A DNA stretch of 64,000 bases, taken from Pigmentiphaga litoralis (lineage in GTDB: Bacteria > Pseudomonadota > Gammaproteobacteria > Burkholderiales > Burkholderiaceae_B). The translations under genes and the position numbers were made by a program. The DNA is taken from positions 930,001 to 994,000 of the forward strand of contig NZ_JACCBP010000002.1 of the NCBI RefSeq assembly GCF_013408655.1, written 5' to 3'. The notes beneath the pieces were generated by a model. That model worked only from the letters and a program-made list of their open reading frames with translations. It was not told the origin of the DNA and did no database searches. The first letter of the stretch is position 1. Each line of letters begins with the position of its first letter. Below, in pieces: positions 1-17,714 of the stretch.

Positions 1-134
1 GGTCCGCCCACTGGATTGCCGACGAGCGCTTTGCCGAGGCGATCGCCGACTTCCTGGAGCGTGAAACCAAGGGCATGGGGCGGTATCTGGACGAACTCGA
101 ATCTCACACCCCGTTCAAGGCATCGGCCGCCTAG
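1..134 (+). CDS. C-terminal end of a FemAB/GNAT-like acyltransferase (partial)
   Basis: The first 134 bases are the open 3' end of a gene read in the frame that starts at base 3 and stops with TAG at 132-134. The last 43 residues include AHWIADERFAEAIADFLERE-like sequence and end in a DELESHTPFK-type tail. I recognise that ending from the DUF482/COG3146 proteins, which are FemAB- or GNAT-like acyltransferases with no settled substrate. The start lies outside the window, so domain content cannot be checked. It is 48 bases upstream of nadE on the same strand and could share its transcript. The family assignment rests on the tail alone. Confidence 0.6.
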   Translation, partial: SAHWIADERFAEAIADFLERETKGMGRYLDELESHTPFKASAA

Positions 135-182
135 GGCGCGTGCGATAATCGGCGGCGTCAACCACGGTCGGATCTCAGGGCG

Positions 183-1805
183 ATGACAGTCAAAGTCGCG
201 ATTGCACAAATCAACTGCACGGTCGGCGATTTCGCCGGCAATATCGCGCGCATCGTCGCGATGGCCGAGCGCGCGCACGCCCGCGGCGCGGACATCCTGC
301 TCACGCCTGAATTGTCCTTGTGCGGATACCCGCCCGAAGACCTGCTGCTGCGCCCGGATTTCCTGAAGCGCTCGCACGACTTCCTGGGGCAATTGCGCCA
401 TGAACTCGCTACCCTGACTGGCCTGCACGTGATCGTCGGCCACCCCGAACTCGAAGACGGCAAGGTCTACAACTCGGCCAGCGTGCTGATCGACGGCCAC
501 TGCATGGGCGCCTACCGCAAGCACGAACTGCCGAACTACAAGGTGTTCGACGAACAGCGGTACTTCACGCCCGGCGTGCAGCCCTTCGCATTCGACGTCA
601 AAGGCATCCGTTTTGGCATCAACATCTGCGAAGACACCTGGTTTTCGCGCGCGCCCGAAGCCGCCGCCGACCTGGGCGCCGAAGTGCTGCTGGTGCCCAA
701 TGCCTCGCCCTTCCATCTGACCAAACACATGACGCGCGTCGAAACGATGCGGGAACACGTGTCCGAAACCGGCTTGTCGCTGGTGTACGCCAACCTGGTC
801 GGCGGGCAGGACGAGCTGGTGTTCGACGGGGCGTCCTTCGTGCTCGACACCCAGGGCGCCGTGGCCGCGCAACTCCCGGCCTTTGACGAAATCCTGGAAA
901 TTGTCGAGTTCAATGGCGCCGAACCGGTGCGCCAGCCCTATCCCGAACCGCTGTGCGAAGAAGCCCTGGTGTACGGCGCCCTGGTGCTGGGCGTGCGCGA
1001 CTACCTGGGCAAGAACGGCTTTCCGGGTGCGCTGATCGGGCTGTCGGGCGGCATCGATTCGGCCCTGGTGCTGGCCGTGGCGGTGGACGCGCTGGGCGCC
1101 GACAAGGTCCGGGCGGTCATGATGCCGTCGCGGTACACGGCCGACATTTCCTGGACCGACGCCCGCGACATGGCCGAACGCCTGGGCGTGCGCTACGACG
1201 AACATCCCATTGCGCCGATGGTCGATGCGTTCGAAAAGACGCTGGCTGGCGAATTTGAAGGCCGCGCGGTCGACGCTACCGAAGAGAACATCCAGGCGCG
1301 GGTGCGCGGCACGCTGCTGATGGCGCTGTCTAACAAGTTCGGGTCCATCGTGCTCACGACAGGCAACAAGTCTGAACTCGCCACGGGCTACTGCACGTTG
1401 TACGGTGACATGGCGGGCGGCTTCGCCGTCATCAAGGACATCGCAAAGACGCTGGTGTATCGCCTGTGCCGCTGGCGTAATACGGTATCGGACGTGATTC
1501 CCGACCGCATCATCACCCGGCCGCCGTCCGCCGAGCTGCGCCCTGACCAGACCGACCAGGACAGCCTGCCGCCGTACGACGTGCTGGACGCGATCATGCA
1601 GATGTACATGGAAGAGAACCGGTCGGGCGCCGAGATCGTGCAGGCCGGCTACGCCACCGCCGATGTCCAGCGCGTCACGCGCCTGATCCGCATCAACGAA
1701 TACAAGCGCCGCCAGTCGCCGGTCGGCATCCGTGTCACGCACCGGGCCTTCGGGCGCGACTGGCGCTATCCGATCACCAACCGATTCAACGAAGTGTTTG
1801 AGTAA
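183..1805 (+). CDS. nadE: Glutamine-dependent NAD+ synthetase
   Basis: This cytoplasmic enzyme performs the last step of NAD biosynthesis, amidating nicotinic acid adenine dinucleotide with ATP and ammonia taken from glutamine. The 540 residues fit the two-domain glutamine-dependent class. Residues 1-250 are a nitrilase-type amidase with the triad Glu43 (TPELSLCGYP), Lys113 (YRKHELPNYK) and Cys149 (GINICEDTW). Residues 260-540 are the synthetase, with the ATP PP-loop SGGIDSA at 288-294. The ATG at 183 puts the amidase domain right at the N-terminus, as usual. glnB follows after 15 bases, an adjacency common in Burkholderiales that links NAD supply with nitrogen sensing. Confidence 0.97.
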   Translation: MTVKVAIAQINCTVGDFAGNIARIVAMAERAHARGADILLTPELSLCGYPPEDLLLRPDFLKRSHDFLGQLRHELATLTGLHVIVGHPELEDGKVYNSASVLIDGHCMGAYRKHELPNYKVFDEQRYFTPGVQPFAFDVKGIRFGINICEDTWFSRAPEAAADLGAEVLLVPNASPFHLTKHMTRVETMREHVSETGLSLVYANLVGGQDELVFDGASFVLDTQGAVAAQLPAFDEILEIVEFNGAEPVRQPYPEPLCEEALVYGALVLGVRDYLGKNGFPGALIGLSGGIDSALVLAVAVDALGADKVRAVMMPSRYTADISWTDARDMAERLGVRYDEHPIAPMVDAFEKTLAGEFEGRAVDATEENIQARVRGTLLMALSNKFGSIVLTTGNKSELATGYCTLYGDMAGGFAVIKDIAKTLVYRLCRWRNTVSDVIPDRIITRPPSAELRPDQTDQDSLPPYDVLDAIMQMYMEENRSGAEIVQAGYATADVQRVTRLIRINEYKRRQSPVGIRVTHRAFGRDWRYPITNRFNEVFE

Positions 1806-2159
<354 letters not shown>

Positions 2160-2449
2160 TCGCCGTGACCTGTCGTTCCTTGCGGTGAGCAGCAAGCGGT
2201 AAGCGGCAGGCCGACCATGCCGGCCATGCCGGCTTGCCTGCGTGCGTCTGCCTCAAACCCCCCGGGCCGCAGGCGCCGTTTCCCGTCGTTCCTCCCCCTC
2301 ATGCACCGTTCCCGGTGATAATTCCGCCTGATTCACGCACCCGCATGGCCGTCCTCACTCCGCAGCACCGGCTGGGTGCCGTGGACGCGACCCGCACGCC
2401 GTACCCCTTTCGCCGGTACGCGCAAGTGCGAGCGGAACAAGGGAGATCT

Positions 2450-3112
2450 ATGCAGTCGAGTCAGGCGCCAAAGTCCTTCAACCTGCGTGAACAGGTGGTC
2501 CGGCAGGTACGCTCCGAAATCATTACGGGACGCAAGGCGCCCGGGTCGGTCTATACCGTCCCGGGTCTGGCCGCGGAACTGGGCGTCTCGACGACGCCAG
2601 TTCGCGAGGCCTTGCTTGAGTTGAGCCGCAACGGGCTGATGTCGCCCATGCGCAATCGGGGTTTCAGGGTGGAGCAGTTGTCGCTGCAGGCCCTGGACGA
2701 CCTTTTCACCATGCGTGAACTGGTTGAGCGTTTTGCGCTGGAGACCCTGGCACGCGTCGGATTGAAGGACCCGCAGCCCGTGCGCGCACTGGCGGACGCG
2801 GTGGCCGTGGCGGTGGAGCAGGGCGATGTCGCCGGCTACATTGCCAGCGATCAGGCGTTTCACGAAGCGCTGGTGTCCCAGGCAGGCAATCCCTTGATGA
2901 CGCGGATGGTCATGCAATTGCGCGATGACATGCGCCTGTACGGCATCGATTCGGAAGAGGGCGTGCAACGGCAGAAGGCGTCCGTGCAGGAGCACTACCA
3001 GATGATCGATCTGGCCATTCGGCAGGACGTACAGCAGATCGGTGACCTCATCAGCCGGCATATCCTGGCGTGGAAACCCTTGTTCCGGTCTGCGCTGGCG
3101 GGAACGTCGTAA
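2450..3112 (+). CDS. GntR-family transcriptional regulator (FCD subfamily)
   Basis: A 220-residue DNA-binding regulator. Residues 10-75 form the GntR winged helix (LAAELGVSTTPVREALLEL). Residues 80-215 form an FCD effector domain with the usual metal-binding set Asp134, His138, His182 and His204. The frame is open further upstream, but I chose the ATG at 2450 because it follows a GGGAG ribosome site at 2441-2445 and starts directly before the winged helix. FCD regulators generally respond to small carboxylates. It lies just ahead of, and in the same direction as, the molybdoenzyme cluster. Palindromes at 3122-3137 and 3241-3254 in the next gap are its likely operators, so it is probably the local repressor. 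Confidence 0.88.
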   Translation: MQSSQAPKSFNLREQVVRQVRSEIITGRKAPGSVYTVPGLAAELGVSTTPVREALLELSRNGLMSPMRNRGFRVEQLSLQALDDLFTMRELVERFALETLARVGLKDPQPVRALADAVAVAVEQGDVAGYIASDQAFHEALVSQAGNPLMTRMVMQLRDDMRLYGIDSEEGVQRQKASVQEHYQMIDLAIRQDVQQIGDLISRHILAWKPLFRSALAGTS

Positions 3113-3121
3113 GCGCTTACT

Positions 3122-3137
3122 GAGTAGCGCGCTACTC
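3122..3137. promoter_or_regulatory. Perfect 16-bp palindrome, candidate GntR operator 1
   Basis: GAGTAGCGCGCTACTC reads the same on both strands. It lies ten bases after the GntR stop codon. Its core AGTAGCGCGCTACT recurs with one change at 3241-3254, which argues for a protein-binding site rather than a terminator; it has no T-run. Confidence 0.6.
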
Positions 3138-3228
3138 GACGTGTAATTGTTGCGGTCGCTGGTGCTTCTAGCTTCCGCACGCCACTGCCCCCAACAAAGC
3201 GTAGCCCGATCATTCTCGTAAACCCCTG

Positions 3229-3256
3229 TTGTCACGCAGCAGTAACGCGCTACTAT
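3229..3256 (+). promoter_or_regulatory. Predicted sigma-70 promoter of the molybdoenzyme cluster
   Basis: TTGTCA at 3229-3234 and TACTAT at 3251-3256 are separated by 16 bases. The predicted transcription start is near 3263, about 28 bases before the ATG at 3291. The -10 box overlaps the second palindrome (3241-3254), so a bound repressor would block RNA polymerase. The leader shows no good Shine-Dalgarno sequence. Confidence 0.5.
3241..3254. promoter_or_regulatory. Candidate GntR operator 2, over the -10 box
   Basis: AGTAACGCGCTACT differs at one base from the core of the perfect palindrome at 3123-3136. A third, more degenerate copy of the half-site, ACGCGCTAC at 3282-3290, ends exactly at the start codon and has AGTAA at 3271-3275 as a possible partner. 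Two near-identical sites plus a third half-site in 170 bases suggest cooperative repression. Confidence 0.55.
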
Positions 3257-3290
3257 GTGCGCCTTGACCTAGTAATGTGTCACGCGCTAC

Positions 3291-6200
3291 ATGACAACGA
3301 CCACCTTTTCTGGCTATTGCACGCTTTGCCGATCCCGCTGCGGTTCGATCAATGACGTGGTCGACGGACGCCTGGTCAGGGTCTCGCCCGCGCCCGATCA
3401 TCCGACGGGCGGTGCGCTCTGTGCCAAGGGGCGCGCCGCCCCGGAATTGGTCGGGAGTCCGCTGCGGCTGACGCATCCAATGCGCCGGACGACGCCCCGT
3501 GGCGCCGCCCACCCGCAATGGGAGCCGATGACCTGGGATGCCGCCCTGGACGAGATCGCGAGCCGGTTGCTGGCGGCCCGCGACCAGGACGGCGCGGAGT
3601 CCGTGGCATTTGCAGTCACGACGCCCAGCGGCACGCCCATGGTCGACAGCATCGATTGGGTGGAGCGCTTCATCCGCTGTTTTGGCAGCCCCAACCTGCT
3701 GTACGCGGTGGAAGTCTGCGGCTGGCACAAGGACTACGCGCACGCCCTGACCTTTGGACGCGGCATCGGCGTTCCCGACCTCGACCATGCCGACGTGATC
3801 GTGCTCTGGGGCTTCAATCCGGCCCGCACCTGGCTGGCACAGGCCTCGCGTATTGCCGCCGCCAGGCAGCGGGGCGCCAAGGTCGTCGTAATTGATCCGA
3901 AGCAGGATGGTTCCGGCCAGCAGGCCGACTTATGGCTGCCCGTGCGGCCGGGTGCGGATGCCGCGCTGGCGCTGGGGGCGATCCGGCATCTGCTCGAAAC
4001 CGGCAGCTACGATGCCGACTTCGTGCGCGACTGGACCAATGCGCCGCTCCTAGTCGATGCCGAGACCGGCGACCTGTTGCGGGTCAAGGATGTGGACGCC
4101 TCGGCGATCGCGGTGCGGACTTCGGTATCTGCGACGTCAGCCACGACGTCAACCACAACCTCCGCCCAGCCAAGCGCCGCCGCCGGAACGGCTGCCAACG
4201 CCTTCCTCATGTCGACCGCATCGGGCCAGTGGATCGCATTCGACCCCGCACGCCCCACGCCGCCCGACGTTGCCTTGTTTGCCGAGGGCGAGTACCTGTC
4301 CTCCACCGGCCAGCGCCGCCGCTACCGGACCGTATTGTCCGCCTTGCGCCAGCATGTCGCCGACTACACCGTGGAACGGGTTGCGCAACTGACCTGGATC
4401 GCCGAAGACCGCATCGCGCAGTTCAACACGGTGTTCATGGGCGCTCCCCGGTTGGCCTATCACGCGTGGACCGGCGTCGGGCAGCACACCAACGCGACGC
4501 AAACCGAACGCGCCATCGGCACGCTGTACGCATTGACCGGCGCCTGTGACCGCGAGGGCGGCAATCTGTGGACGCGTTCGCCGCCTTACCGTCTGGTCAA
4601 TGAGTACGAATCGCTGCTGCCGGCATCGCAGCGCGCCAAGGCGCTTGGCTTGCACGACCTGCCGCTCGGGCCACCCCGCCTGGGATGGATCACCGCCCGG
4701 GACCTGGCCAAGGCCGTCCTGCACGCACAACCCTATCGGGTGCGGACGCTTGTCAGCTTCGGCAGCAATCTGCTGGTGACCCAGGCCGACGCGGAACGCA
4801 ACGCGCGGATGCTGCGCGCGCTGGACTTTCATGTGCATGTGGATGTGTTCATGAACCCCACGGCGGACCAGGCCGACATCGTCCTGCCGGCCAACCTGCC
4901 GTGGGAACGCGAGGCCCTGAAGCTGGGGTTCGAAATCTCCCAGCAAGCCGTCGAACACGTGCAGCTGCGTCCCCGCATGGTCGAGCCGCCCGGCGAGTCG
5001 CGTGCCGATTACGACATCGTCATGGCGCTGGCGACCCGCATGGACATGGAGGACGCGTTCTTTGGCGGCGACATCGAAGCAGGCTGGAATCACCAGCTGG
5101 CGCCCTTGGGCATTGGTGTCGACGATCTGCGTGCGCAGCCGGAAGGGCGGCGCTTCCCGCAGCCCTTTGACACCCGCAAGTACGCGGTAATGTCGCCTGA
5201 TGGCACGGTCGCAGGTTTTGCCACGGCGTCGCGCCGTGTCGAATTGCACTCCAGTGCGCTGCAGGACATCGGTCAGCCGCCCTTACCCATGTTTGTCGAG
5301 CCCGCGCAGCACCCGGGCAGCGACCCGGCGTTTCCAGTCGTGCTGACCACGGCCAAAAGCGGCTGGTATGTGCATTCCTCGCACCGTCACATTGCGTCGT
5401 TGCGTCGCAAGTCCCCCATGCCGCGCGTGCAGATCGGCGCGGGCCTGGCCGACCGCCTTGGCATCGACGACGGCGCGTGGGTGCGGGTCGTCACGCGCAA
5501 GGGCGCGACGCGGCTGAAGGCGTTGATAGCCCGCACGCTGCATGACCAGGTGGCCGTTGCCGAATTCGGCTGGTGGCAGGGCTGCGAGGCACTCGGGCTG
5601 GCGGATGGCGCCGCCTGGGGCACCTCAAGCGCCAACATCAACGCCGTGCTGGATGACGACGAACGCGATCCGGTCAGTGGCAGCGTGCCCCTGCGCGCCA
5701 CGCTCTGCCGCATCGAAGCGGACCCCGAGGCGAATCGCGGCCACTGGACCGGCATGCGTGCGTTCCAGCTTGTCGAGCGCACTCAGGTGACCGACGACGT
5801 GCAGCGCCTCGAACTCGTGCCGGTCGATGGCAAGCCCCTGCCGGACTTTCTGCCCGGCCAGCACGTCATCGTGACGCTGCCCGACATGGACTGCCGGCGC
5901 GCCTATTCGCTGGTCGGCCCGAACCATCGGCCAGATCGCCTGGCCATTGCCGTCAGGCTGGCGTTGACGCCCGGCGAGGCCCCTGGCCGCGTGTCGTCGC
6001 GCCTGCACAGGGCGGACCTGGGCGTCACGCTGCACCTGTCACCGCCCGCCGGCGTCTTCACCATTCCAACGGAGACGACGCGCCCGATCGTGCTGGTGGC
6101 CGGCGGCATCGGCATTACACCGTTTCTGGGCTATCTGGAGGCCCTGGCCCAGCGCAAGGCCGATGGCCTGTCGACGCCGCCCGTCCTGCTGGTGCATGGC

Positions 6201-6815
6201 GCGCGGCCCGGCTCGCCGCATCCGTTTGCGGACACGCTGGCCGCCCTGGCCGCATCGATCGGCAATGTCGAGCTTATGTTTGTTCACGGCCCGGTCCTGG
6301 CCAATCTGGAGCGCCTGTCGACCCAGTTGGTCGCACGCCGCCCCTTGGCCTACCTGTGCGGCGCGCCGGGTTTCCTGACCGAGGTCAGGCAGGCCTTGTG
6401 CGCGCATGGCATGCCGGACTTCGACATTTTCGACGAGACCTTTTCGTCCGAGGTCACCATCCCGCGCACGCTTGCACCCCAGCGGGTCGGGATCGAGGAA
6501 GCGAACGCCGGGCCCGGCACCGGTCCGGGTGTGCACGTGTCCGCGGACGCCTTGGCGCAAGGGTCCGACACCCTGCCTTCCACGCCCTCCGTCCATTTCG
6601 ACTGGGCACCCGCGATGGGCACTTTGCTCGACGCGGCCGACCGTGCCGGCGTTCCCTTGCCCAGCGGCTGCCGCGTAGGGCAATGCGAGAGCTGCATCAT
6701 GTCCGTCGTCGACGGCAAGGTCGCGCATCTGGCGCCCTACGACGGGCCTCCGGACCGCTGCCTGACCTGCATTGCGGTGCCTTTGACACCCGTCACCTTG
6801 CGGCGATCGCCGTAG
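3291..6815 (+). CDS. Fused molybdopterin oxidoreductase / flavin reductase / 2Fe-2S ferredoxin protein
   Basis: A 1174-residue cytoplasmic protein without signal peptide. Residues 1-790 are a DMSO-reductase-family molybdopterin oxidoreductase with an N-terminal 4Fe-4S site (Cys10, Cys13, Cys17, Cys44). Cys143 in VEVCGWHKDYA sits where formate dehydrogenase and assimilatory nitrate reductase have their Mo ligand. Residues about 810-1070 resemble phthalate-dioxygenase-type reductases, with flavin motif RAYSLVG and NAD motif GGIGITPF. The C-terminus is a plant-type 2Fe-2S domain (Cys1127, Cys1132, Cys1135, Cys1160). The layout suggests electrons passing between NAD(P)H, flavin, iron-sulfur clusters and molybdenum in one chain. 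The substrate is unknown. The ATG at 3291 is forced by an in-frame stop at 3273-3275, and it lacks a clear ribosome site. Confidence 0.85.
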   Translation: MTTTTFSGYCTLCRSRCGSINDVVDGRLVRVSPAPDHPTGGALCAKGRAAPELVGSPLRLTHPMRRTTPRGAAHPQWEPMTWDAALDEIASRLLAARDQDGAESVAFAVTTPSGTPMVDSIDWVERFIRCFGSPNLLYAVEVCGWHKDYAHALTFGRGIGVPDLDHADVIVLWGFNPARTWLAQASRIAAARQRGAKVVVIDPKQDGSGQQADLWLPVRPGADAALALGAIRHLLETGSYDADFVRDWTNAPLLVDAETGDLLRVKDVDASAIAVRTSVSATSATTSTTTSAQPSAAAGTAANAFLMSTASGQWIAFDPARPTPPDVALFAEGEYLSSTGQRRRYRTVLSALRQHVADYTVERVAQLTWIAEDRIAQFNTVFMGAPRLAYHAWTGVGQHTNATQTERAIGTLYALTGACDREGGNLWTRSPPYRLVNEYESLLPASQRAKALGLHDLPLGPPRLGWITARDLAKAVLHAQPYRVRTLVSFGSNLLVTQADAERNARMLRALDFHVHVDVFMNPTADQADIVLPANLPWEREALKLGFEISQQAVEHVQLRPRMVEPPGESRADYDIVMALATRMDMEDAFFGGDIEAGWNHQLAPLGIGVDDLRAQPEGRRFPQPFDTRKYAVMSPDGTVAGFATASRRVELHSSALQDIGQPPLPMFVEPAQHPGSDPAFPVVLTTAKSGWYVHSSHRHIASLRRKSPMPRVQIGAGLADRLGIDDGAWVRVVTRKGATRLKALIARTLHDQVAVAEFGWWQGCEALGLADGAAWGTSSANINAVLDDDERDPVSGSVPLRATLCRIEADPEANRGHWTGMRAFQLVERTQVTDDVQRLELVPVDGKPLPDFLPGQHVIVTLPDMDCRRAYSLVGPNHRPDRLAIAVRLALTPGEAPGRVSSRLHRADLGVTLHLSPPAGVFTIPTETTRPIVLVAGGIGITPFLGYLEALAQRKADGLSTPPVLLVHGARPGSPHPFADTLAALAASIGNVELMFVHGPVLANLERLSTQLVARRPLAYLCGAPGFLTEVRQALCAHGMPDFDIFDETFSSEVTIPRTLAPQRVGIEEANAGPGTGPGVHVSADALAQGSDTLPSTPSVHFDWAPAMGTLLDAADRAGVPLPSGCRVGQCESCIMSVVDGKVAHLAPYDGPPDRCLTCIAVPLTPVTLRRSP

Positions 6816-6893
6816 CGTCATGGCGCCGCCTGTTTCACGTCTTTCCTGCTTTGCGACTTCTCTCACCCTTCAGCATTCAACACGGGAAATGGT

Positions 6894-8345
6894 ATGACTC
6901 ATTCGCAGATCCGGCCGGAATCGCCGACGCCCGACACCCGCCTCATGGCGCGCGTATCGCAAGTCATCGTGTCCTGGGCCGAAAAGTGGTTCCCCGATGC
7001 CTACGTGTTCGTGGTGGTTGCCTGCCTGGCCGTCGCCTTGGGCGCCGCATTCCACAGCGGCGATCCGATGGCGGTCAGCAAGGCGTTCGGTGACGGTTTC
7101 TGGAGCATCATCCCGTTCACCATGCAGATGGTCATGGTCGCCATCACCGGTTATGTCCTGGCCATGTCGCGCCCGGTCGCCGCGCTGCTGCGCCGGATTG
7201 CCCGGGTTCCGTCCACGTCGCGCGGCGCCATCGTATTCATCGGTGTGCTGAGCATTCTGCTGTCATTGGTCAACTGGGGCCTGAGCCTGATCTTCTGCGG
7301 GCTGCTGGTGCGCGAAATGGCGCGGCGCACCGACCTGTCGCTCGACTACCGCGCTGCGGGGGCGGCCGCCTACCTGGGCATGGGCTGCGGCTTTACGCTG
7401 GGCATGAGTTCATCGGCTGCGCAGCTGCAGGCGACGGTGTCCAGCATCCCGTCGTCGCTGCTGCCCATCACGGGTGTGATCGGTTTCGACCAGACCATCC
7501 TGACCTGGCAGAACCTGGTAGTCATCGTCCTGGTCACGGTGCTGTCGGCGCTGATCTGCTACTGGACCGCCCCCGGGCGGGATGCCACGCGTACCGCCGC
7601 CGACCTGGGCGTGGATCTGGACGATGACCAGCCGCCAGTGCTGACGCGGCAGCGCAAGGGCGACTACTTCGAGTACAGCCCCATCCTGACCATCGTAGTG
7701 GTGCTGCTGGGCGCGGGCTGGCTGTACAACGCGTTTCGCAGCGGCAATCCGCTGATCACGATGTCGCAGCTCAACACCTACAACTTCGTGTTCCTGATGC
7801 TGGGACTGTTGCTGCACTGGCGGCCGCGCAGTTTCCTGGACAGCTTCGTGCGGGCCATGCCCAGCGTGGGTGGGGTGCTGCTGCAATTCCCGTTCTATGG
7901 CGGCATCGGGTACATGCTGACCAAAGTCGCCAATGCGCAAGGCGTGACGCTGTCCGACCAGATCGCCCATTGGTTCGTGAACGTGGCGAATGATTCCGGC
8001 GTGTTTTCGGTCCTGGTCAGCGTGTACTCGGCGCTGCTGGGCTTCTTCATTCCGTCAGCAGGGGGCAAGTGGGTGATCGAAGCGCCCTACATCATGACCG
8101 CCGCCAATCAGCTGGAAGCGCATCTGGGCTGGACCGTCATGGTCTACAACATTTCCGAGACGCTGCCGAACTTCATCAATCCGTTCTGGATGTTGCCCTT
8201 GCTGGGGATCCTCAAGCTGCGCTCCAAAGACCTGGTGGGCTACACCTCGCTCCAGTTCTTCATCCATACCCCCATCGTCATCCTGGCCGCGGCGCTGCTC
8301 ATGCCGACCTTCACCTATCTGCCGCCCGTGATTCCCGGCCGGTGA
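6894..8345 (+). CDS. AtoE/TIGR00366-family short-chain fatty acid transporter
   Basis: A 483-residue inner-membrane permease with about twelve hydrophobic segments. Examples are VFVVVACLAVALGAAF near residue 40, FIGVLSILLSLVNWGLSLIF near 120 and LLGFFIPSAGGKWVIEAPYI near 390. The SAGGKW stretch and overall length match the short-chain fatty acid transporter family typified by E. coli AtoE, which imports acetoacetate and butyrate-like acids. It starts 78 bases after the molybdoenzyme gene, behind a GGGA ribosome site at 6884-6887, and the next gene follows after 22 bases. It therefore probably imports the substrate of the cluster, a small carboxylic acid. The real substrate cannot be read from sequence. 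Confidence 0.87.
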   Translation: MTHSQIRPESPTPDTRLMARVSQVIVSWAEKWFPDAYVFVVVACLAVALGAAFHSGDPMAVSKAFGDGFWSIIPFTMQMVMVAITGYVLAMSRPVAALLRRIARVPSTSRGAIVFIGVLSILLSLVNWGLSLIFCGLLVREMARRTDLSLDYRAAGAAAYLGMGCGFTLGMSSSAAQLQATVSSIPSSLLPITGVIGFDQTILTWQNLVVIVLVTVLSALICYWTAPGRDATRTAADLGVDLDDDQPPVLTRQRKGDYFEYSPILTIVVVLLGAGWLYNAFRSGNPLITMSQLNTYNFVFLMLGLLLHWRPRSFLDSFVRAMPSVGGVLLQFPFYGGIGYMLTKVANAQGVTLSDQIAHWFVNVANDSGVFSVLVSVYSALLGFFIPSAGGKWVIEAPYIMTAANQLEAHLGWTVMVYNISETLPNFINPFWMLPLLGILKLRSKDLVGYTSLQFFIHTPIVILAAALLMPTFTYLPPVIPGR

Positions 8346-8367
8346 CCTTCCTGATTCGGTAGCTGAC

Positions 8368-9975
8368 ATGATCTCCACCTCTTTGCGCAACGAACCCATG
8401 CTGTCCTATGCAGCCGGCTCCCCCGAACGCACCGACATCCGCGCTGCCCTGGATGCGCACGCCGGGCAGGTCATCGATATCCCCCTGGTCATCAACGGCC
8501 GCCGGCATGCGGGAGGCGGGACACTGCCCCTGCATGCGCCCCATGCGCATCGCCGCCAGCTGGCGGCGGTCAGCCAGGCCGACGTGGGCGACATTGCCCA
8601 GGCGATCGTGGCCGCCACCACCGCCCAGCGTGCGTGGGCGGCCATGGATTTCGAAAGCCGGGCCGCGATCTTCCTGCGGGCGGCCGACCTGCTCGCGGGC
8701 CCGTGGCGGCAACGGCTCAACGCGGCGACCATGCTCGGCCAGAGCAAGACCGTGGTCCAGGCCGAGATCGATTCCGCGTGCGAGCTGATCGACTTCCTGC
8801 GGTTCAACGTTGCCTTTGCCCGGACCTTGCTTGCCCATCAGCCGCATTCGCCCGACGGCATGCGCAACGCATTGGACTACCGGCCGCTGGAAGGGTTTGT
8901 CTACGCCGTCACGCCATTCAACTTCACGGCGATCGCGGGCAACCTGCCTTGCGCCCCGGCCTTGCTGGGCAACACGGTGATCTGGAAGCCCGCCTTTACC
9001 GCGTCGCTCAGCAACTATCTGTTCATGGAACTGCTCGAGGCAGCCGGCTTGCCGCCGGGCGTCATCAACTTCGTTCCAGGCTCGGCGGCTGCCGTGTCCG
9101 ACACGGTGCTGGCGTCCCGGGACTTTGCCGGTCTGCACTTCACGGGATCGACCGAGGTCTTCGATGCCCTATGGCAACAGGTGGCGCGCCGACTGCCGCA
9201 GTACCGCAGCTATCCCAGGCTGGTGGGAGAAACCGGCGGCAAGGACTTCATCCTGGCGCATGCGTCGGCCGACGCAGAGGCGGTTGCCGTGGCCCTGCTG
9301 CGCGGCGCCTTCGAATATCAAGGCCAGAAGTGCAGTGCGGCGTCGCGCGCTTATCTGCCGGCCTCCTTGTGGCCGCGGATCAAGGAACGCTTGCTGGACG
9401 ACCTGGCCACGCTGCGGATGGGAGATGTCGAGGATTTCGGTAACTTCATGGGTGCGGTCATCGACCTTAAGGCCTTCGATCGGGTGTCGGGCTACATTGC
9501 CGGCGCGCAGACCGCGGGCCACCAGGTGCTGGCCGGTGGCCAGTGCAATGACCGTGACGGCTACTTCATTGCCCCCACCGTGATCGAGGTGTCCGATCCC
9601 AAGGCGGTCACGATGCGCGAAGAAATCTTCGGGCCGGTGCTGTCGTTGATTGTCTATCCCGACACGGCCTGGGAAACCATGGTTGCCGAGGTGGACGACA
9701 CCAGCCCGTATGCATTGACGGGCGCCGTCTTTGCCACCGACCGCCAGGCGATCGCGTATGCGAGCGCCCACCTGCGCGCCAGCGCCGGCAACTTCTACAT
9801 CAACGACAAGCCGACGGGCGCCGTGGTGGGGCAGCAGCCCTTTGGCGGCGCGCGGCGCAGCGGCACCAATGACAAGGCCGGGTCTGTCCTTAACCTGCAA
9901 CGCTGGACGTCCCCCCGCACGATCAAGGAGACTTGGGTTCCCGCGACCGATTATCGCTACCCGCACATGGCCTGA
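8368..9975 (+). CDS. L-glutamate-gamma-semialdehyde-type aldehyde dehydrogenase
   Basis: A 535-residue NAD(P)-dependent aldehyde dehydrogenase of the delta-1-pyrroline-5-carboxylate dehydrogenase group. Motifs include VTPFNFTAIAGNLPCAPALLGN, the general base Glu288 in VGETGGKDF and the catalytic Cys322 in GQKCSAASR. The ending with INDKPTGAVVGQQPFGGARRSGTN is a P5C dehydrogenase hallmark. The nearby putA carries its own dehydrogenase domain, so this is a second, stand-alone enzyme and probably serves a different semialdehyde. An in-frame ATG at 8398 is a less likely start. It sits 22 bases behind the transporter and 56 bases ahead of the ornithine-cyclodeaminase-family gene, consistent with one operon. 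Confidence 0.88.
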   Translation: MISTSLRNEPMLSYAAGSPERTDIRAALDAHAGQVIDIPLVINGRRHAGGGTLPLHAPHAHRRQLAAVSQADVGDIAQAIVAATTAQRAWAAMDFESRAAIFLRAADLLAGPWRQRLNAATMLGQSKTVVQAEIDSACELIDFLRFNVAFARTLLAHQPHSPDGMRNALDYRPLEGFVYAVTPFNFTAIAGNLPCAPALLGNTVIWKPAFTASLSNYLFMELLEAAGLPPGVINFVPGSAAAVSDTVLASRDFAGLHFTGSTEVFDALWQQVARRLPQYRSYPRLVGETGGKDFILAHASADAEAVAVALLRGAFEYQGQKCSAASRAYLPASLWPRIKERLLDDLATLRMGDVEDFGNFMGAVIDLKAFDRVSGYIAGAQTAGHQVLAGGQCNDRDGYFIAPTVIEVSDPKAVTMREEIFGPVLSLIVYPDTAWETMVAEVDDTSPYALTGAVFATDRQAIAYASAHLRASAGNFYINDKPTGAVVGQQPFGGARRSGTNDKAGSVLNLQRWTSPRTIKETWVPATDYRYPHMA

Positions 9976-10031
9976 CACGACGGCTCCGTAACGGGGCGCC
10001 TGCCGCAGCGTCTTATTTGCAAGGACACCGC

Positions 10032-10976
10032 ATGAAGATCCTGGATAGCGCGGCCACGATTGGCCGCCTGCCATTCCCCGCACTGATTGCCGCGCTGGAC
10101 GACATGTTCCGCGCGGACGTGACTGTTCCGCGCCGCCATTTCCACATTCTGTCCGACACGCCGCCCGATGCCGGCAGTCTGCTGATCATGCCCGCCTGGC
10201 AGCCGGGCAGGTACCTGGGGATCAAGCATGTCACGATCTTTCCGGGCAATGGCGAACGGGGCCTGCAGGGCCTGCATTCCACCTATACCCTGTTCGATGC
10301 GCGCACGGGCGTGCCCGTTGCGTTGATCGATGGCGATGCGATCACCGTGCGGCGCACGGCGGCGGCGTCGGCACTGGCCGCGCGGTCGCTGGCGCGGGCG
10401 GATTCGCGCAGGCTGCTGATCGTGGGCGCCGGCAAGGTGGCCGCGGCGCTGGCGCCAGCCTATGCAGCGGTCCGGGACATTGCAGAGATCGACGTCTGGA
10501 ATGTCCGGGCGGACAAGGCCGAGGCGCTGGCGGCGCGTTTGCGCGCTGACGGGTTCAGGGCGACGGCCATCGATGACCTGGAAGCCGGCGTGCGCCGCGC
10601 CGACATCGTCACGTGCGCCACCTTGTCGCAAGCGCCCCTGGTGCGTCGGGCCTGGCTGCAGCCCGGTGTCCATGTGGATCTGATCGGCGGGTTCACGCCG
10701 CAGATGCGCGAGAGCGATGACGCGACGTTTGCCGATACGTCGGTGTTCGTGGACACGCGTGAAGCGCTGGACAAGGCCGGGGATGTGCTGTCGCCGATCG
10801 CTGCAGGGGTGTTTGCGCCAGAGGGCGTGCGGGCGACGCTGGAAGATCTGTGCCGCGGCGCGCATCCCGGCCGCGAGCACGACGACGAGATCACTGTTTA
10901 CAAGGCGGTGGGCACCGCGCTGGAGGATCTGGCGGCCGCGATTCTGGTGTACGAGGCGGGCGAACCGGTAGCGTGA
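10032..10976 (+). CDS. Ornithine cyclodeaminase / mu-crystallin family protein
   Basis: A 314-residue NAD(P)-binding protein. Residues 60-115 carry the family blocks LGIKHVTIFPGN and ITVRRTAAASALAAR. The Rossmann loop LLIVGAGKVAAAL lies near residue 125. Members include ornithine cyclodeaminase, alanine dehydrogenase and reductases of delta-1-pyrroline-2-carboxylate or other cyclic imino acids. Without the ornithine-specific residues being checked I would not call it a true cyclodeaminase. The start at 10032 follows AAGGA at 10021-10025; an upstream in-frame extension lacks this. Last gene of the cluster. Next to a glutamate-semialdehyde-type dehydrogenase it hints at a cyclic imine or proline-like intermediate. 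Confidence 0.8.
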   Translation: MKILDSAATIGRLPFPALIAALDDMFRADVTVPRRHFHILSDTPPDAGSLLIMPAWQPGRYLGIKHVTIFPGNGERGLQGLHSTYTLFDARTGVPVALIDGDAITVRRTAAASALAARSLARADSRRLLIVGAGKVAAALAPAYAAVRDIAEIDVWNVRADKAEALAARLRADGFRATAIDDLEAGVRRADIVTCATLSQAPLVRRAWLQPGVHVDLIGGFTPQMRESDDATFADTSVFVDTREALDKAGDVLSPIAAGVFAPEGVRATLEDLCRGAHPGREHDDEITVYKAVGTALEDLAAAILVYEAGEPVA

Positions 10977-11050
10977 AGGAAGTTTTTCTCCGCCATTGAT
11001 TGCCGTCGCGTGGCAAGGGGACGACGGCAGCAGCGACGGCAACTGAAACT

Positions 11051-11074
11051 GCAACCGCAACCGCAACCGCAACC
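11051..11074. repeat. Four tandem GCAACC hexamers between convergent genes
   Basis: Four perfect copies of the hexamer GCAACC lie in the 117-base gap between the convergent cyclodeaminase-family and Lrp genes. No terminator with a T-run is visible there. A slippage-prone microsatellite is the simplest reading. Confidence 0.7.
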
Positions 11075-11093
11075 GCTTTGACTCGCACCTGCG

Positions 11094-11588
11094 TCAGAGC
11101 TGCAGCCGTGCCGGCGCCAGATCCAGGTGGGTCGAATGTTTCACTTCTTCCATCACCGCGTAGCTGCGCGTCTCCCGCACCCCGGGCAGTTGCCATAACA
11201 CCCTGCCGGCAAAGTCGCGGTAGCCGTCCATGTCGGCGTGCCGGGTCTTGAGCAGGTAGTCGAATCCCCCGGCCACCATGTGGCATTCCATGATTTCCGT
11301 ACGCACCTGCACCGCGGCTTTGAACTCGTCGAAGACGTTGGGCGTCGTGCGATCCAGCAGCACTTCCACGAACACCAGCAGCCCGGCGCGCAACTTGCGA
11401 GGGTTGAGCCGCGCTTCGTATCCCAATATCAGATTGTCTTTGGTCAGGCGCTGAACGCGAGCCAGCACGGCGGTTGGGGACAAGTGCACGGCCTCGGCCA
11501 GCCGGGTGTTGGCAATGCGACCGTCCTGCTGCAGCAGCGCCAGAATCTGCAGGTCGGTCTTGTCGAGGTCTTGGCTGTCGGGCGGCAT
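11094..11588 (-). CDS. Lrp/AsnC-family transcriptional regulator, likely putA activator
   Basis: A 164-residue regulator. Residues 8-60 form the Lrp helix-turn-helix (LDKTDLQILALLQQDGRIAN, then LAEAVHLSPTAVLARVQRL). Residues 70-150 form the RAM/AsnC ligand domain. It is transcribed away from putA with a 101-base gap, the arrangement seen for PutR/BkdR-type regulators that activate proline dehydrogenase when proline is present. The neighbouring PutA lacks the ribbon-helix-helix autorepressor domain, so an outside regulator is expected. Its own ribosome site is weak. The role is inferred from family and position. Confidence 0.87.
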   Translation of the reverse strand: MPPDSQDLDKTDLQILALLQQDGRIANTRLAEAVHLSPTAVLARVQRLTKDNLILGYEARLNPRKLRAGLLVFVEVLLDRTTPNVFDEFKAAVQVRTEIMECHMVAGGFDYLLKTRHADMDGYRDFAGRVLWQLPGVRETRSYAVMEEVKHSTHLDLAPARLQL

Positions 11589-11689
11589 GATGTTTCGCTA
11601 GTTTGACGCCAAAATATAGCAAATAACTCAGCGGCAGGGCCGGCATCATTGTCGAAAGTCCACGACCCACCTTGATCGGAACCTCCGCG
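11589..11689. promoter_or_regulatory. Divergent lrp-putA control region
   Basis: The 101-base gap contains an AT-rich patch around 11608-11632 (GCCAAAATATAGCAAATAACTC) in otherwise GC-rich DNA. Lrp/AsnC proteins favour such bendable sites, and both promoters must lie here. I cannot define exact -10/-35 boxes. Confidence 0.4.
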
Positions 11690-14600
11690 ATGTCTGTCAC
11701 CCCGCTTGCCCCAGCCGCCGCCACAACCCACCCAGGCATCGACGCTGCCGATGCTGCGCATGCCGGCGAGTCCATCGCTTCCCCTGCCATCGCCGCGCGT
11801 GCTGCGGACAGCGGCCCGCTCGATACCGCCGGCAGCGATGCGATCACGCCCTTGCCGCGCCGATCTTCGCTGCGCAAGGCCATCACCCGGGCGTGGCGCC
11901 TGAGCGAACCCGAGGCCGTGCCGCCTTTGCTGGCGGCTGCCCGCGTTAGCCCGGTGTCTGCCGAACGCATCACGACCCTGGCGCGCCGCATTGCCCAAGG
12001 TCTGCGAGACCAGCCCGCCGCGCCGGGCAAGTCAGGTCTCGTGCAGGGGCTGCTGCAGGAATTTTCCCTGTCCTCTCAAGAAGGGGTGGCGCTGATGTGC
12101 CTGGCCGAGGCGCTGCTGCGTATTCCCGACAGCGCCACGCGTGACGCGCTGATCCGCGACAAGGTCCGCGGCGGCAACTGGAAGGACCACGTCGGCCAAA
12201 GCCCGTCGGTATTCGTGAACGCCGCGGCCTGGGGTCTGATGCTGACCGGCAAGCTGGTCGCCACGCATAACGAAGCGGGGATGGGATCGACGCTGAGCAA
12301 CGTCATGCGCAAAGGTGGCGAACCCTTGATCCGCAAGGGCGTGGACGTGGCAATGCGCCTGATGGGCGAGCAATTTGTGACCGGCGAGACGATTGGCGAG
12401 GCGCTGCGCAACGCCCGTCATCGAGAGGCTGCCGGCTACCGCTATTCCTACGACATGTTGGGCGAGGCCGCACTGACCTCGTCCGACGCTGCCCGCTACT
12501 TCGCGGACTACGCGCAGGCGATCCATGCGATCGGCAAGGCATCGGCCGGGCGCGGCATCCAGGAAGGACCCGGCATTTCGATCAAGCTGTCGGCCTTGCA
12601 TCCGCGCTACAGCCGCGCGCAGATCGACCGGGTGCACGACGAACTCTATCCGTCGGTGCTGCAGCTGGCCGAAGTGGCATGCCAGTACGACATCGGCCTG
12701 AATATCGACGCCGAAGAAGCCGACCGTCTGGAACTGTCGCTGGACTTGCTGGAACGCTTGTGCGCCGAGCCGTCGTTGCGCGGCTGGCAGGGCATTGGCT
12801 TTGTCATCCAGGCCTATCAGAAGCGATGCCCGGCCGTAGTGGACTACTTGGTCGACCTGGCCCGTCGCAGCGGCCGCCGGTTGATGGTCCGGCTGGTCAA
12901 GGGCGCCTATTGGGACAGCGAAATCAAACGCGCGCAGATCGACGGGCTGGACGACTATCCCGTGTACACCCGCAAGCCCTATACCGACCTGTCGTACATC
13001 GCCTGCGCCCGCAAGCTGCTGGCCGCGCCGGACCAGATCTATCCGCAGTTCGCCACGCACAACGCGCATACCCTGGCGGCCATTTACGAGCTGGCAGATC
13101 CTGCAGCCTGGAAGCCCGGGCAATACGAATTCCAGTGCCTGCACGGCATGGGTGAATCCCTGTACGACCAGGTGGTCGGCACCGGGCCGGACACCCTGGC
13201 CCGACCCTGCCGCATCTATGCGCCCGTCGGCACGCATGAAACGCTGCTGGCCTACCTGGTGCGCCGCCTGCTGGAAAACGGCGCGAACTCGTCGTTCGTG
13301 AATCAGGTGGCGGACCCGTCCATTCCGTTGGACGCGCTGGTGCAGGACCCGGTGGCGCAGGTGGACGCCATGACGGTGGAGGAGGGCCGCACCGGGTTGC
13401 CGCACCCCGTTATTCCGCTGCCTGCGCATCTGTACGGCCATGCGCGCGCCAATTCCCGGGGTATCGACCTCGCCAACGATGACACCTTGGCGCATCTGGC
13501 TGGCACGCTGCGCCAGCACGCGGCTGATGCGCTATGCGCCGGACCCATGTTGGCATCACATGACGCGAATGACGAGGCAGCGCCATCGCGGCACCCGGCA
13601 AAAGGCAGCCTGGAAAGCACCTTTGTGGATGACCTCGATCAAGTCGCCGACGATACGCGACGCGGCATGAGTGATATGCCTGCATCCGTCGTCGACGTCA
13701 TCAACCCCGCCGATCATCACGACCTTGTCGGCAAGGTCCGCCACGCAACACCCGCCGACGTCGACGCCGCCTTGGCCGCCGCCGCCAACTTCGCCCCGAC
13801 CTGGGCCAGTGTCCCGCCCATCGAACGCGCCTTCGCCCTCGAACGCGCAGCCGACGCTCTGCAGTCCGACACTGAACGACTGATCGGCATCCTGGTGCGC
13901 GAGGCCGGCAAGACCTACGCCGCCGCCGTCGCCGAAGTGCGCGAAGCCGTCGACTTCCTGCGCTATTACGCCTGGCAGGTCAGCACCACGTTCGACAATG
14001 CCACGCACCGGCCTTTGGGACCCGTGGTCTGCATCAGCCCGTGGAATTTCCCCCTGGCCATCTTTACCGGCCAGATCGCCGCGGCGCTGGCCGCGGGCAA
14101 TACCGTGCTGGCCAAGCCGGCCGAACAAACTTCGTTGATCGCGGCAGAAGCCGTCCGCGTGTTGTGGGATGCCGGCATTCCGCGCGCCGCGTTGCAGATG
14201 CTGCCCGGCTCGGGCCAGGCGCTCGGCCCCTTGCTGGTGGACGATCCGCGCGTGCAAGCTGTGATGTTTACCGGGTCGACCGCCGTCGCCCGGCAGTTGC
14301 AGCGCAGTTTGGCCACCCGCCTGGGCGCCAGCGGCAAACCCATTCCCCTGGTGGCAGAGACCGGCGGGCAAAACGCGATGATCGTGGATTCATCCGCCCT
14401 GGCCGAGCAGGCCGTGCAGGACATCGTGCAGTCCGCCTTCGACAGCGCGGGGCAGCGGTGCTCGGCATTGCGGGTGCTGTATGTGCAGCACGACGTGGCG
14501 GATCGCCTGATCGGCATGCTGACAGGCGCCATGAAAGAGTTGCGCCTGGGCAATCCCGCCAGGCTGCACACCGACGTCGGCCCCGTGATCGATGTCCGCG

Positions 14601-15703
14601 CCCGCGACACGATCCAGAACCACATCGACGCCATGCGCGCCAAGGGGTTCGAAGTGGTGCAGGCCGCCTGGGGCGACGCCGTCGCCCGGGAAGCCGCGAT
14701 GGAGCAGGGCACCTTCATCCCGCCCACCCTGATCACCCTGCCGTCCTTGCGCGAACTGAAGCAGGAGGTGTTCGGCCCGGTGCTGCACGTCATCCGCTAT
14801 CGGCGCGAGGACCTGGATGCCGTCCTGCGGGACATCGCCGCGACCGGCTACGGGCTGACCATGGGCCTGCATACCCGCATCGACGAGACGATCGCGCAAG
14901 TGGCGCGGCAGGCGCATGTCGGCAATCTTTATGTGAACCGGAACATGGTGGGCGCGGTGGTGGGCGTGCAGCCGTTCGGCGGGGAAGGGCTGTCGGGCAC
15001 CGGCCCCAAGGCGGGCGGACCGCTGTACCTGCTGCGCCTGCTGGCGGACAGGCCGGATAACGCGATCGATCTGGCGTTGCAGGGGCTGGTTAAGGAAGAG
15101 GCGGACGCCACGTCGCCCAAGGCCGCCGAACCACGCGCAGAGCGTCGCAGCGCCGTCGCGTCAGGCCCTGCCGCCGCGCTCGGGCACTGGTGCGCTCAAC
15201 AAGGCTTCGGGACGCCCACGCCACTCGACCTGCCAATGGATGCCATGTTCGTCCTCGCCGGCCCGACCGGCGAACGCAACACCTATCGCCTTGTGCCGCG
15301 CGTAGCGGTGCTGTGCGTCGCAATGGAACCAACTGCGCTCCTGGCAATAACTGTTTCCGTACTGGCAGTCGGATCCCGAGCCGTCTGGGACGCAGGCAGC
15401 CCAAACGCCGCCAGCCTGCACCAGAGCCTGCCGCCGGAAGTGCGTGCTCACATCACGCTGCAAAAAGAAGGGGCTGAAGACGCAGGCAGCCCGCCGATCG
15501 CATCAGCGATCCATCAGGGCACCGACACCTCGCTGCTGACCTTGCTGGCCCGCATGGCCGCGCGCGACGGCGCCATCGTGCCCGTCTACGCGATCACGGA
15601 AGACGCACCGTCGGTGCCATTGGAATCGTTGGTGATGGAACGCGCCGTCAGCACGAACACGGCCGCAGCCGGCGGCAATGCTAGCCTGATGACGATGACG
15701 TAA
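11690..15703 (+). CDS. putA: Bifunctional proline dehydrogenase / P5C dehydrogenase
   Basis: PutA oxidises proline to glutamate in two steps with FAD then NAD. From the ATG at 11690 it has 1337 residues. Residues about 1-60 are low-complexity Ala/Pro. A helical region follows, then the proline dehydrogenase barrel at about 190-480 (KLSALHPRYSRAQIDRV, HGMGESLYDQVVG). The aldehyde dehydrogenase domain is at about 660-1130 with Cys924 in GQRCSALRV and Glu in VAETGGQNAM. A long, poorly conserved C-terminal extension ends the protein. There is no N-terminal ribbon-helix-helix domain, so it should not bind DNA. A TTG at 11672 is an alternative start, but the ATG seems likelier. It is faced by an Lrp/AsnC gene. 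Confidence 0.95.
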   Translation: MSVTPLAPAAATTHPGIDAADAAHAGESIASPAIAARAADSGPLDTAGSDAITPLPRRSSLRKAITRAWRLSEPEAVPPLLAAARVSPVSAERITTLARRIAQGLRDQPAAPGKSGLVQGLLQEFSLSSQEGVALMCLAEALLRIPDSATRDALIRDKVRGGNWKDHVGQSPSVFVNAAAWGLMLTGKLVATHNEAGMGSTLSNVMRKGGEPLIRKGVDVAMRLMGEQFVTGETIGEALRNARHREAAGYRYSYDMLGEAALTSSDAARYFADYAQAIHAIGKASAGRGIQEGPGISIKLSALHPRYSRAQIDRVHDELYPSVLQLAEVACQYDIGLNIDAEEADRLELSLDLLERLCAEPSLRGWQGIGFVIQAYQKRCPAVVDYLVDLARRSGRRLMVRLVKGAYWDSEIKRAQIDGLDDYPVYTRKPYTDLSYIACARKLLAAPDQIYPQFATHNAHTLAAIYELADPAAWKPGQYEFQCLHGMGESLYDQVVGTGPDTLARPCRIYAPVGTHETLLAYLVRRLLENGANSSFVNQVADPSIPLDALVQDPVAQVDAMTVEEGRTGLPHPVIPLPAHLYGHARANSRGIDLANDDTLAHLAGTLRQHAADALCAGPMLASHDANDEAAPSRHPAKGSLESTFVDDLDQVADDTRRGMSDMPASVVDVINPADHHDLVGKVRHATPADVDAALAAAANFAPTWASVPPIERAFALERAADALQSDTERLIGILVREAGKTYAAAVAEVREAVDFLRYYAWQVSTTFDNATHRPLGPVVCISPWNFPLAIFTGQIAAALAAGNTVLAKPAEQTSLIAAEAVRVLWDAGIPRAALQMLPGSGQALGPLLVDDPRVQAVMFTGSTAVARQLQRSLATRLGASGKPIPLVAETGGQNAMIVDSSALAEQAVQDIVQSAFDSAGQRCSALRVLYVQHDVADRLIGMLTGAMKELRLGNPARLHTDVGPVIDVRARDTIQNHIDAMRAKGFEVVQAAWGDAVAREAAMEQGTFIPPTLITLPSLRELKQEVFGPVLHVIRYRREDLDAVLRDIAATGYGLTMGLHTRIDETIAQVARQAHVGNLYVNRNMVGAVVGVQPFGGEGLSGTGPKAGGPLYLLRLLADRPDNAIDLALQGLVKEEADATSPKAAEPRAERRSAVASGPAAALGHWCAQQGFGTPTPLDLPMDAMFVLAGPTGERNTYRLVPRVAVLCVAMEPTALLAITVSVLAVGSRAVWDAGSPNAASLHQSLPPEVRAHITLQKEGAEDAGSPPIASAIHQGTDTSLLTLLARMAARDGAIVPVYAITEDAPSVPLESLVMERAVSTNTAAAGGNASLMTMT

Positions 15704-15891
15704 ACAAAGCCGCGCGGAAAAAAGCCGCACAGGGCATGGCAGCTCCGGAAGACCAAAGAACCATCCAGGGCGGAGGTTCACCTTCGGTCGGTCAAGCCTG
15801 GAATGTTGCTTATGGGACTGACGGGCTCAAAGCATCCCGGCAGGAAGGGCCAACACCAGCAAAAAGGGCCAAAGCCGGCATGCCCCAGCCA

Positions 15892-16545: not shown

Positions 16546-16579
16546 GGTCGAACTCCGGGTTCAGGGCAAACAACGCGGC

Positions 16580-17590
<1,011 letters not shown>

Positions 17591-17701
17591 TCAAGGCATT
17601 GCAATGGAAAGATCGATTATAAGTAGCGGTTTGTTGCACTGTGCTTGAGTTTATCTATCACGACGATAGCGCCCGCTCCGTCGGGCATGCTGCGTCGCAC
17701 A

Positions 17702-17707
17702 TATAAT
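17702..17707 (+). promoter_or_regulatory. Perfect -10 box seven bases from the ftsK start
   Basis: TATAAT at 17702-17707 ends seven bases before the ATG at 17715. A transcript started from it would begin at or within a base of the start codon. No convincing -35 element is present at 16-18 bases, so strength is uncertain. Confidence 0.4.
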
Positions 17708-17714
17708 CACCGCC

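Follow-up and report, generated by a model that had tools for sequence, protein, structure and literature searches.

A molybdoenzyme-reductase fusion and its recurrent partners in Pigmentiphaga litoralis: a possible reductive route from an N-heterocyclic acid to proline and glutamate

Introduction

Microbial metabolism of pyrrole-2-carboxylate is known but poorly understood (PMC12899673; this paper and the others named below are cited from excerpts), and the routes described use a monooxygenase or a decarboxylase of the HudA type (PMC6165268, PMC12899673, PMC10176493). Reductases of Delta1-pyrroline-2-carboxylate (P2C) that belong to the ornithine cyclodeaminase (OCD) superfamily have been described in the catabolism of trans-3-hydroxyproline (PMC4113996), and relatives of acetylene hydratase are described as acting on aromatic rings (PMC7028382, PMC9516567). 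Here we analyse a 64,000-nucleotide stretch of Pigmentiphaga litoralis DNA (contig NZ_JACCBP010000002.1, positions 930,001 to 994,000), called the window below, and within it a molybdenum-reductase fusion protein (MOF) with its neighbours: a GntR/FCD regulator, an AtoE-family permease, a Delta1-pyrroline-5-carboxylate (P5C) dehydrogenase (P5CDH) and an OCD-family protein.

Our tentative reading, built on sequence comparison, is that P2C or P5C would be formed reductively from an imported N-heterocyclic acid. Were the acid pyrrole-2-carboxylate, the route would lead reductively from an aromatic N-heterocycle to proline and glutamate, an entry new for this compound, and it would bring a new DMSO-reductase-family reaction and a new enzyme architecture, horizontally spread through Proteobacteria into Rhodococcus. 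A word-based search of the open-access literature found no description of the gene set or of the fusion, and none of a reductive pyrrole-2-carboxylate route.

The molybdenum-reductase fusion

MOF (1174 residues; 3291-6815, forward strand) was characterized from Pfam matches, motifs, invariant alignment columns, an AlphaFold model (mean pLDDT 86.7, pTM 0.87) and its nearest PDB entry. Residues ~1-810 hold the 4Fe-4S and Mo-bis-pterin domain, in which three matches above the Pfam cut-offs (Molybdopterin 143.8 bits, cut-off 24; Molydop_binding 65.5, cut-off 26.8; Molybdop_Fe4S4 35.2, cut-off 22.7) place the protein in the DMSO reductase (bis-pterin Mo/W) superfamily. Residues ~820-1174 hold flavin, NAD and 2Fe-2S domains (FAD_binding_6 at 825-923, NAD_binding_1 at 935-999 and a C-terminal Fer2 at 1104-1164, all above the Pfam cut-offs), and the domain order together with the CX4CX2C motif at 1127 assigns this part to the phthalate-dioxygenase-reductase type. 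The 4Fe-4S cysteines are C10, C13, C17 and C44; the 2Fe-2S motif is C1127-C1132-C1135 with C1157/C1160. That the domains of an electron chain from NADH to Mo are all found in one protein argues for a reductive role.

We propose C143, within the motif E-V-C-G-W-H-K-D, as the Mo ligand; it aligns with the corresponding Cys of acetylene hydratase and is invariant in both MOF family alignments. The fused family shares the signature E-[IV]-C-[GN]-W-H-K-D, with few variants. Just after the ligand Cys, where formate dehydrogenase has His, the window's protein has Gly, and the fused proteins in the tree have Gly, Asn or Thr (L073). These residues bear on the plainest explanation of the locus, in which unrelated genes flank MOF and MOF itself is an enzyme of a familiar type, either an assimilatory nitrate reductase or an NAD-linked formate dehydrogenase. 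Names lean that way (one plasmid relative is recorded as nasC, and many others carry the generic JGI name 'anaerobic selenocysteine-containing dehydrogenase/ferredoxin-NADP reductase'), and the locus L127, one of those compared below, has genes for FdhD and a formate-dehydrogenase-like alpha subunit farther upstream. The curated scores are nevertheless far under the cut-offs (NasC 134.2 against 1100; TIGR01591, Fdh-alpha, 225.6 against 666.25), the formate dehydrogenase His is replaced, and neither a nitrite reductase nor a nitrate transporter was found among the annotated plasmid-locus neighbours or among those neighbours, a part of the whole, that were scanned with Pfam. Both identities are judged unlikely from scores and active-site residues, and we hold the explanation as a whole to be barely credible; the initial annotation had named identity with either of these enzymes as a finding that would refute its reading. 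Among the matches listed, which cover 25 of 38 NCBIfam families, MOF reaches no cut-off.

By sequence and by fold, the nearest PDB entry to the Mo domain is acetylene hydratase, and MOF could be a similar hydratase of an alkynoic or related acid, with the fused reductase keeping the metal reduced and active. We regard this as very unlikely. The Asp that follows the second Cys of the 4Fe-4S motif is catalytic in acetylene hydratase; in MOF it is replaced by Arg14, and Arg is nearly invariant at this position across the family alignment. There is little reason for a hydratase to carry a built-in NADH chain at all times, and alkynoic acids would leave P5CDH, the OCD protein and putA unexplained.

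Relatives of MOF, a family with only generic names, are numerous at low stringency (2697 at E <= 0.001 among 7991 candidates scored), and the best 120 all have both Mo-pterin and 2Fe-2S domains. At E <= 1e-100 the host's taxonomic family has them in 20 of 268 genomes, a phylum sample in 5 of 398 and an order sample in 7 of 399, where all six besides the window's own genome end at residue 810 and so have no reductase part; another order of the same phylum has them in 13 of 347 genomes, some also without the reductase part. At E <= 1e-50, 39 plasmid records match. Seven stand-alone Mo-domain relatives of 800 residues (L096-L101 and L103), which have no reductase part, nest inside the fused MOF tree under midpoint rooting; the reductase part may thus have gone through more than one loss or gain. 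The locus comparison gave neither an OCD nor a permease match near these seven, and L103 adjoins an Ldh_2-family dehydrogenase. Separately, we observed a relative of ~40% identity on a Klebsiella quasipneumoniae conjugative plasmid, beside cueR, lpxC and def (L066), matches to part of MOF only in several other enterobacterial plasmid records, and in Diaphorobacter aerolatus (L015) a relative broken over several frames, either a decayed gene or a sequencing error.

Partner genes at the locus

The genes around MOF all lie on the forward strand. The regulator (2450-3112; Pfam FCD 80.3 bits and GntR 46 bits, both above the cut-offs) has an uncertain start codon, its open frame beginning at 2234. 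Behind MOF come the SCFA_trans/AtoE-family permease (6894-8345; SCFA_trans 283.1 bits, cut-off 27), the stand-alone L-glutamate gamma-semialdehyde (P5C) dehydrogenase of the PruA/ALDH4 type (8368-9975), the OCD-family protein (10032-10976) and, farther on, putA (11672-15703; trifunctional proline dehydrogenase/P5C dehydrogenase/regulator, NF008772 1948 against a cut-off of 1750). The successive gaps are 178, 78, 22, 56 and 695 bases, which agrees with the initial annotation in its description of five genes on one strand with gaps of 22-78 bases behind the fusion. Promoter and terminator scans at the locus gave two and six candidates, the level of shuffled sequence (1.3 and 6.1).

Two of the partners can be named from equivalog models. 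P5CDH passes TIGR01236 (786.4, cut-off 613.6); its best PDB match is 4idm, a P5C dehydrogenase, and within the genome PutA comes next, with 34% identity. The OCD protein passes NF004793 (437.9, cut-off 322) and has among its PDB matches 6t3e, a P2C reductase; it is probably a reductase of P2C and Delta1-piperideine-2-carboxylate (Pip2C). The P2C/Pip2C-reductase model matches all 16 of the MOF-linked OCD proteins that were aligned (of 18; L013 and L105 were excluded) and leads the 13 families found by E-value; the scan gives the members matched and the best E-value per family, with an individual ranking for the window's member only. Pfam and NCBIfam thus uphold the family assignments of the initial annotation and sharpen two of them to P5C dehydrogenase and P2C/Pip2C reductase. 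Its expectation of semialdehyde and cyclic-imine enzymes beside an acid permease, with a putA able to finish the route, also appears sound by the curated models.

The partners set the product side, with P5C or glutamate semialdehyde required by P5CDH, P2C or the six-membered analogue by the OCD protein, and proline by PutA. One other way to arrive at such products is an NADH-dependent N-O (or S-O) reductase, with MOF converting an oxime, nitrone or N-hydroxy acid (pyruvic oxime and proline nitrone are examples) to an imino acid, from which the OCD protein would make the amino acid. The DMSO reductase family most often catalyses oxygen-atom transfer, an imine product suits the OCD partner, and proline nitrone could yield P2C or P5C. 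We nevertheless consider this reading unlikely: an alanine-type product would leave P5CDH and putA unexplained, proline nitrones are not known to be common in nature, and MOF scores far under the cut-offs of the bisC and dmsA models (106 against 1018 and 160 against 778).

The permease is below the cut-off of the AtoE-type model TIGR00366 (275.9 against 575.75) and is the sole match in the window's genome at E <= 0.001. Over 15 loci, identities of MOF and of permease correlate with r = 0.93. The value is 0.45 over 19 loci, once four loci are added whose permease comes from a branch ~28% identical; none of 2000 label shuffles reaches 0.45. These 19 are the part of the 27 permease-bearing loci described below that entered the matrix test (L069, present as two frames in its record, was excluded from both test and MOF tree; the permeases of L013, L016, L049 and L050 were not aligned; L015, L125 and L127 lie outside the tree). 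Recruitment of a second branch of the transporter family in four loci suggests, at the level of sequence families, a small acid of the AtoE kind as substrate. The contexts of three permease homologues without MOF gave no clear hint of a substrate.

The transporter also bears on the possibility that MOF runs in reverse, oxidizing a cyclic amino acid such as D-proline or an N-substituted proline with NAD+ and thereby supplying P2C or P5C to the OCD protein and P5CDH. NAD+-linked formate dehydrogenases show that electron flow from pterin to NAD+ is workable, and D-proline could be converted to P2C and this reduced to L-proline. Against it, the substrates known for AtoE-type permeases are anionic acids rather than amino acids in zwitterionic form, the domain order is that of phthalate dioxygenase reductase, a class that normally draws electrons from NADH, and a cycle from proline to P2C and back is wasteful except for the D form. 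A dehydrogenase is, in our view, rather improbable.

Co-occurrence across genomes

We compared 52 fused MOF loci; the seven stand-alone relatives and one split gene were excluded, 14 of the 39 plasmid matches were read, and L093 was taken in through its OCD match. Some of these loci are cut by contig ends and many are related, so the counts are not of independent events. A permease lies beside MOF on the same strand in 27 of the 52, and an OCD protein of P2C-reductase type in the same run as MOF in 18 (17 of 51 without L093; the gene of L013 is in two frames). P5CDH follows the permease, in the order MOF-permease-P5CDH, in five: the window, L009, L010, L052 and L053. Six arrangements of MOF and its partners were seen: permease-MOF-OCD, MOF-OCD-permease, MOF-permease-OCD, MOF-permease-P5CDH-OCD, MOF-OCD and OCD-MOF. 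The actinobacterium Rhodococcus opacus 1CP has MOF-OCD-permease, with proline dehydrogenase and pruA ~5-6 kb away; in G815, the product of the gene behind OCD-MOF most resembles the L-pipecolate oxidase AmaA (455.7, below the cut-off of 600). In the host's taxonomic family, MOF and OCD stand in one run in 7 of the 20 MOF genomes. The initial annotation had suggested looking for the families together in other genomes, and there they are found: judged by these gene neighbourhoods, the association of the gene set is more than chance.

The partners do not always occur together. Apart from Rhodococcus, nothing in the sequence read around OCD-bearing loci other than the window matches P5CDH strongly. 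Of the genomes that carry MOF-permease-P5CDH, G099 (L053) has its OCD gene elsewhere, and G051 (L009) and G073 (L052) gave nothing OCD-like at E <= 1e-30, which is what one would expect if their MOF makes P5C; in these two the product would enter as P5C or be handled otherwise.

The regulator has relatives within ~3.3 kb of MOF in L009, L010, L015, L052, L053, L055, L125 and L127 (a weaker one in L065) and farther away in L064 and L071. In L125 and L127, both from genus g396, the GntR gene is divergent from MOF-permease, and an OCD-family gene lies on the regulator's strand; that of L127 is an ornithine cyclodeaminase by PRK07589 (564.5, cut-off 350).

Comparison with a congener

In another species of the genus (G193), nadE, the OCD gene and putA stand in the same order, and the four genes from the regulator to P5CDH are lacking. 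In a blastn comparison, window positions 1-2246 correspond to L131 7908-10153 and positions 9994-19808 to L131 10149-19898. By this alignment, GntR-MOF-permease-P5CDH is a separate module of ~7.75 kb (about 2247-9993, ends approximate) in front of the OCD-putA pair, with its right boundary ~38 bases before the OCD start. A single inherited five-gene operon is thereby ruled out. Of the undescribed catabolic operon in the initial annotation, a catabolic cluster is probable, with no description found in the open-access literature searched, and the five genes as one unit do not stand: the OCD gene goes with putA in G193, and G051 and G073 carry their three genes without it.

In the MOF tree, the window's protein groups with P0002 and with Cupriavidus proteins (P0003, P0007 and L010), not with others of its own taxonomic family, which tends to favour, on phylogenetic grounds, acquisition of the module by the window's lineage rather than its loss from G193. 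No foreign composition was seen in the module (G+C 0.659; flanks 0.64 and 0.662), and the search for terminal repeats at its ends gave only short, chance-like matches. The OCD gene, 56 bases behind P5CDH and parted from the upstream sequence that it has in G193, is now likely driven from the module. When the window's OCD protein was searched in ten other genomes of the genus, it matched at 98% identity in G193, at 49% in G189 and at 36-38% in five; the other three had no match at E <= 1e-30. Divergence between window and G193 is uneven, with neighbouring PutA only ~85-87% identical over most of its length.

The same comparison raises the question of whether the module is a chance neighbour of the OCD-putA pair, its closeness without meaning. 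The pair stands without the module in G193, and within the window's own MOF clade only the window has an adjacent OCD gene of P2C-reductase type. In the other MOF clade, however, such a gene adjoins MOF in five gene orders, and at a random site the single run of MOF and OCD seen in 7 of 20 genomes would be expected, by our estimate, in well under 1 in 100. We take chance to be decidedly unlikely here. For the reductive route, it counts in favour that a congener lacking the module has its OCD gene near putA.

The proposed route

In the route that we propose, the AtoE-family permease would import a small monocarboxylic N-heterocycle, as its family and its recurrent partnership with MOF suggest. 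MOF, a soluble single chain, would take hydride from NADH onto the flavin and pass single electrons through the 2Fe-2S and 4Fe-4S clusters to the Cys-ligated Mo-bis-pterin, where a two-electron reduction would turn the acid into a five-membered cyclic imine, P2C and/or P5C. P5C, or glutamate semialdehyde, would be oxidized to glutamate by P5CDH; P2C would be reduced to L-proline by the OCD-type reductase and then converted to glutamate by PutA. Curated models identify these enzymes, and the flux through them is our proposal. The signal for the GntR/FCD protein would be the substrate or one of the intermediates.

Which acid is imported can be approached from the products. By chemical reasoning, adding two hydrogens to pyrrole-2-carboxylate across C2-C3 would give P5C, and across C4-C5 would give P2C. 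Both products match partner genes, which makes pyrrole-2-carboxylate the lead substrate, and as a monocarboxylate it suits an AtoE-type permease. That it is itself the substrate is a possibility we regard as doubtful; equally speculative is the specific reaction, de-aromatization by the NADH-driven molybdoenzyme in one two-electron step that would give P2C or P5C according to clade.

Several observations weigh against the reductive route. The closest relative with a solved structure, acetylene hydratase, adds water without redox chemistry. By our estimate, an aromatic pyrrole may be close to the thermodynamic limit of what NADH can reduce. The correlation of MOF and permease would arise equally from joint inheritance of linked genes, so it speaks for constancy of the partnership and not for function. 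The window holds PutA, P5CDH and OCD together and therefore does not tell P2C from P5C. Among the fused loci, 25 of 52 have no adjacent permease and 34 of 52 no adjacent OCD gene of P2C-reductase type. Genome-wide, an OCD protein of at least 250 bits is present in 14 of 20 MOF-plus and 14 of 27 MOF-minus genomes of the taxonomic family, the latter hand-picked and rich in one genus; with so weak a link, the argument rests on adjacency. Finally, the MOF loci of Klebsiella, Sphingobium and the Ti plasmid have quite different neighbours, which means that the family at large must have other functions. Given these and the remaining settings (Enterobacter plasmids, Tritonibacter and second copies in genus g396), the proposed route is limited to members linked to a permease, OCD or P5CDH. 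For these, the recurrent partners restrict the candidates for the MOF substrate to acids from which P2C, P5C or the six-membered analogue can arise, which is directly testable.

Other features of the window

Two features elsewhere in the window were recorded. An open frame of 3542 residues (35155-45783, forward strand) begins with ESPR, the extended signal peptide of type V secretion, and has no other Pfam match at 1e-10; it is perhaps a large autotransporter. A second, unrelated Mo enzyme, a Mo-cofactor-binding subunit of the xanthine-dehydrogenase type, is encoded at 56176-58383 on the reverse strand.

Comparison with known systems

MOF has in common with acetylene hydratase of Pelobacter acetylenicus (PDB 2e7z) a Cys-ligated bis-pterin domain with one 4Fe-4S cluster, and differs from it in the fused NADH-flavin-2Fe-2S reductase, in the Arg that takes the place of the Asp and in a signature motif of its own. 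Also close to MOF, by published description rather than by sequence comparison, are the metallopterin ergothioneine synthase and the catechol dehydroxylases of the gut, both of which act on aromatic rings.

The flavin, NAD and 2Fe-2S domains are those of phthalate dioxygenase reductase and the BenC-type ferredoxin reductases, and in phthalate dioxygenase reductase, as in MOF, the 2Fe-2S domain comes last. Those reductases serve an oxygenase, whereas the reductase part of MOF is covalently joined to a Mo-pterin protein.

On the product side, the window's OCD protein passes the curated model for P2C reductase, the activity described in trans-3-hydroxyproline catabolism, but it stands with MOF instead of with a dehydratase or epimerase of hydroxyproline. 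On the substrate side, the HudA-type enzymes and the monooxygenase act on the same compound that we propose as the lead substrate of MOF, but by decarboxylating or oxygenative chemistry, whereas the route suggested here would be reductive.

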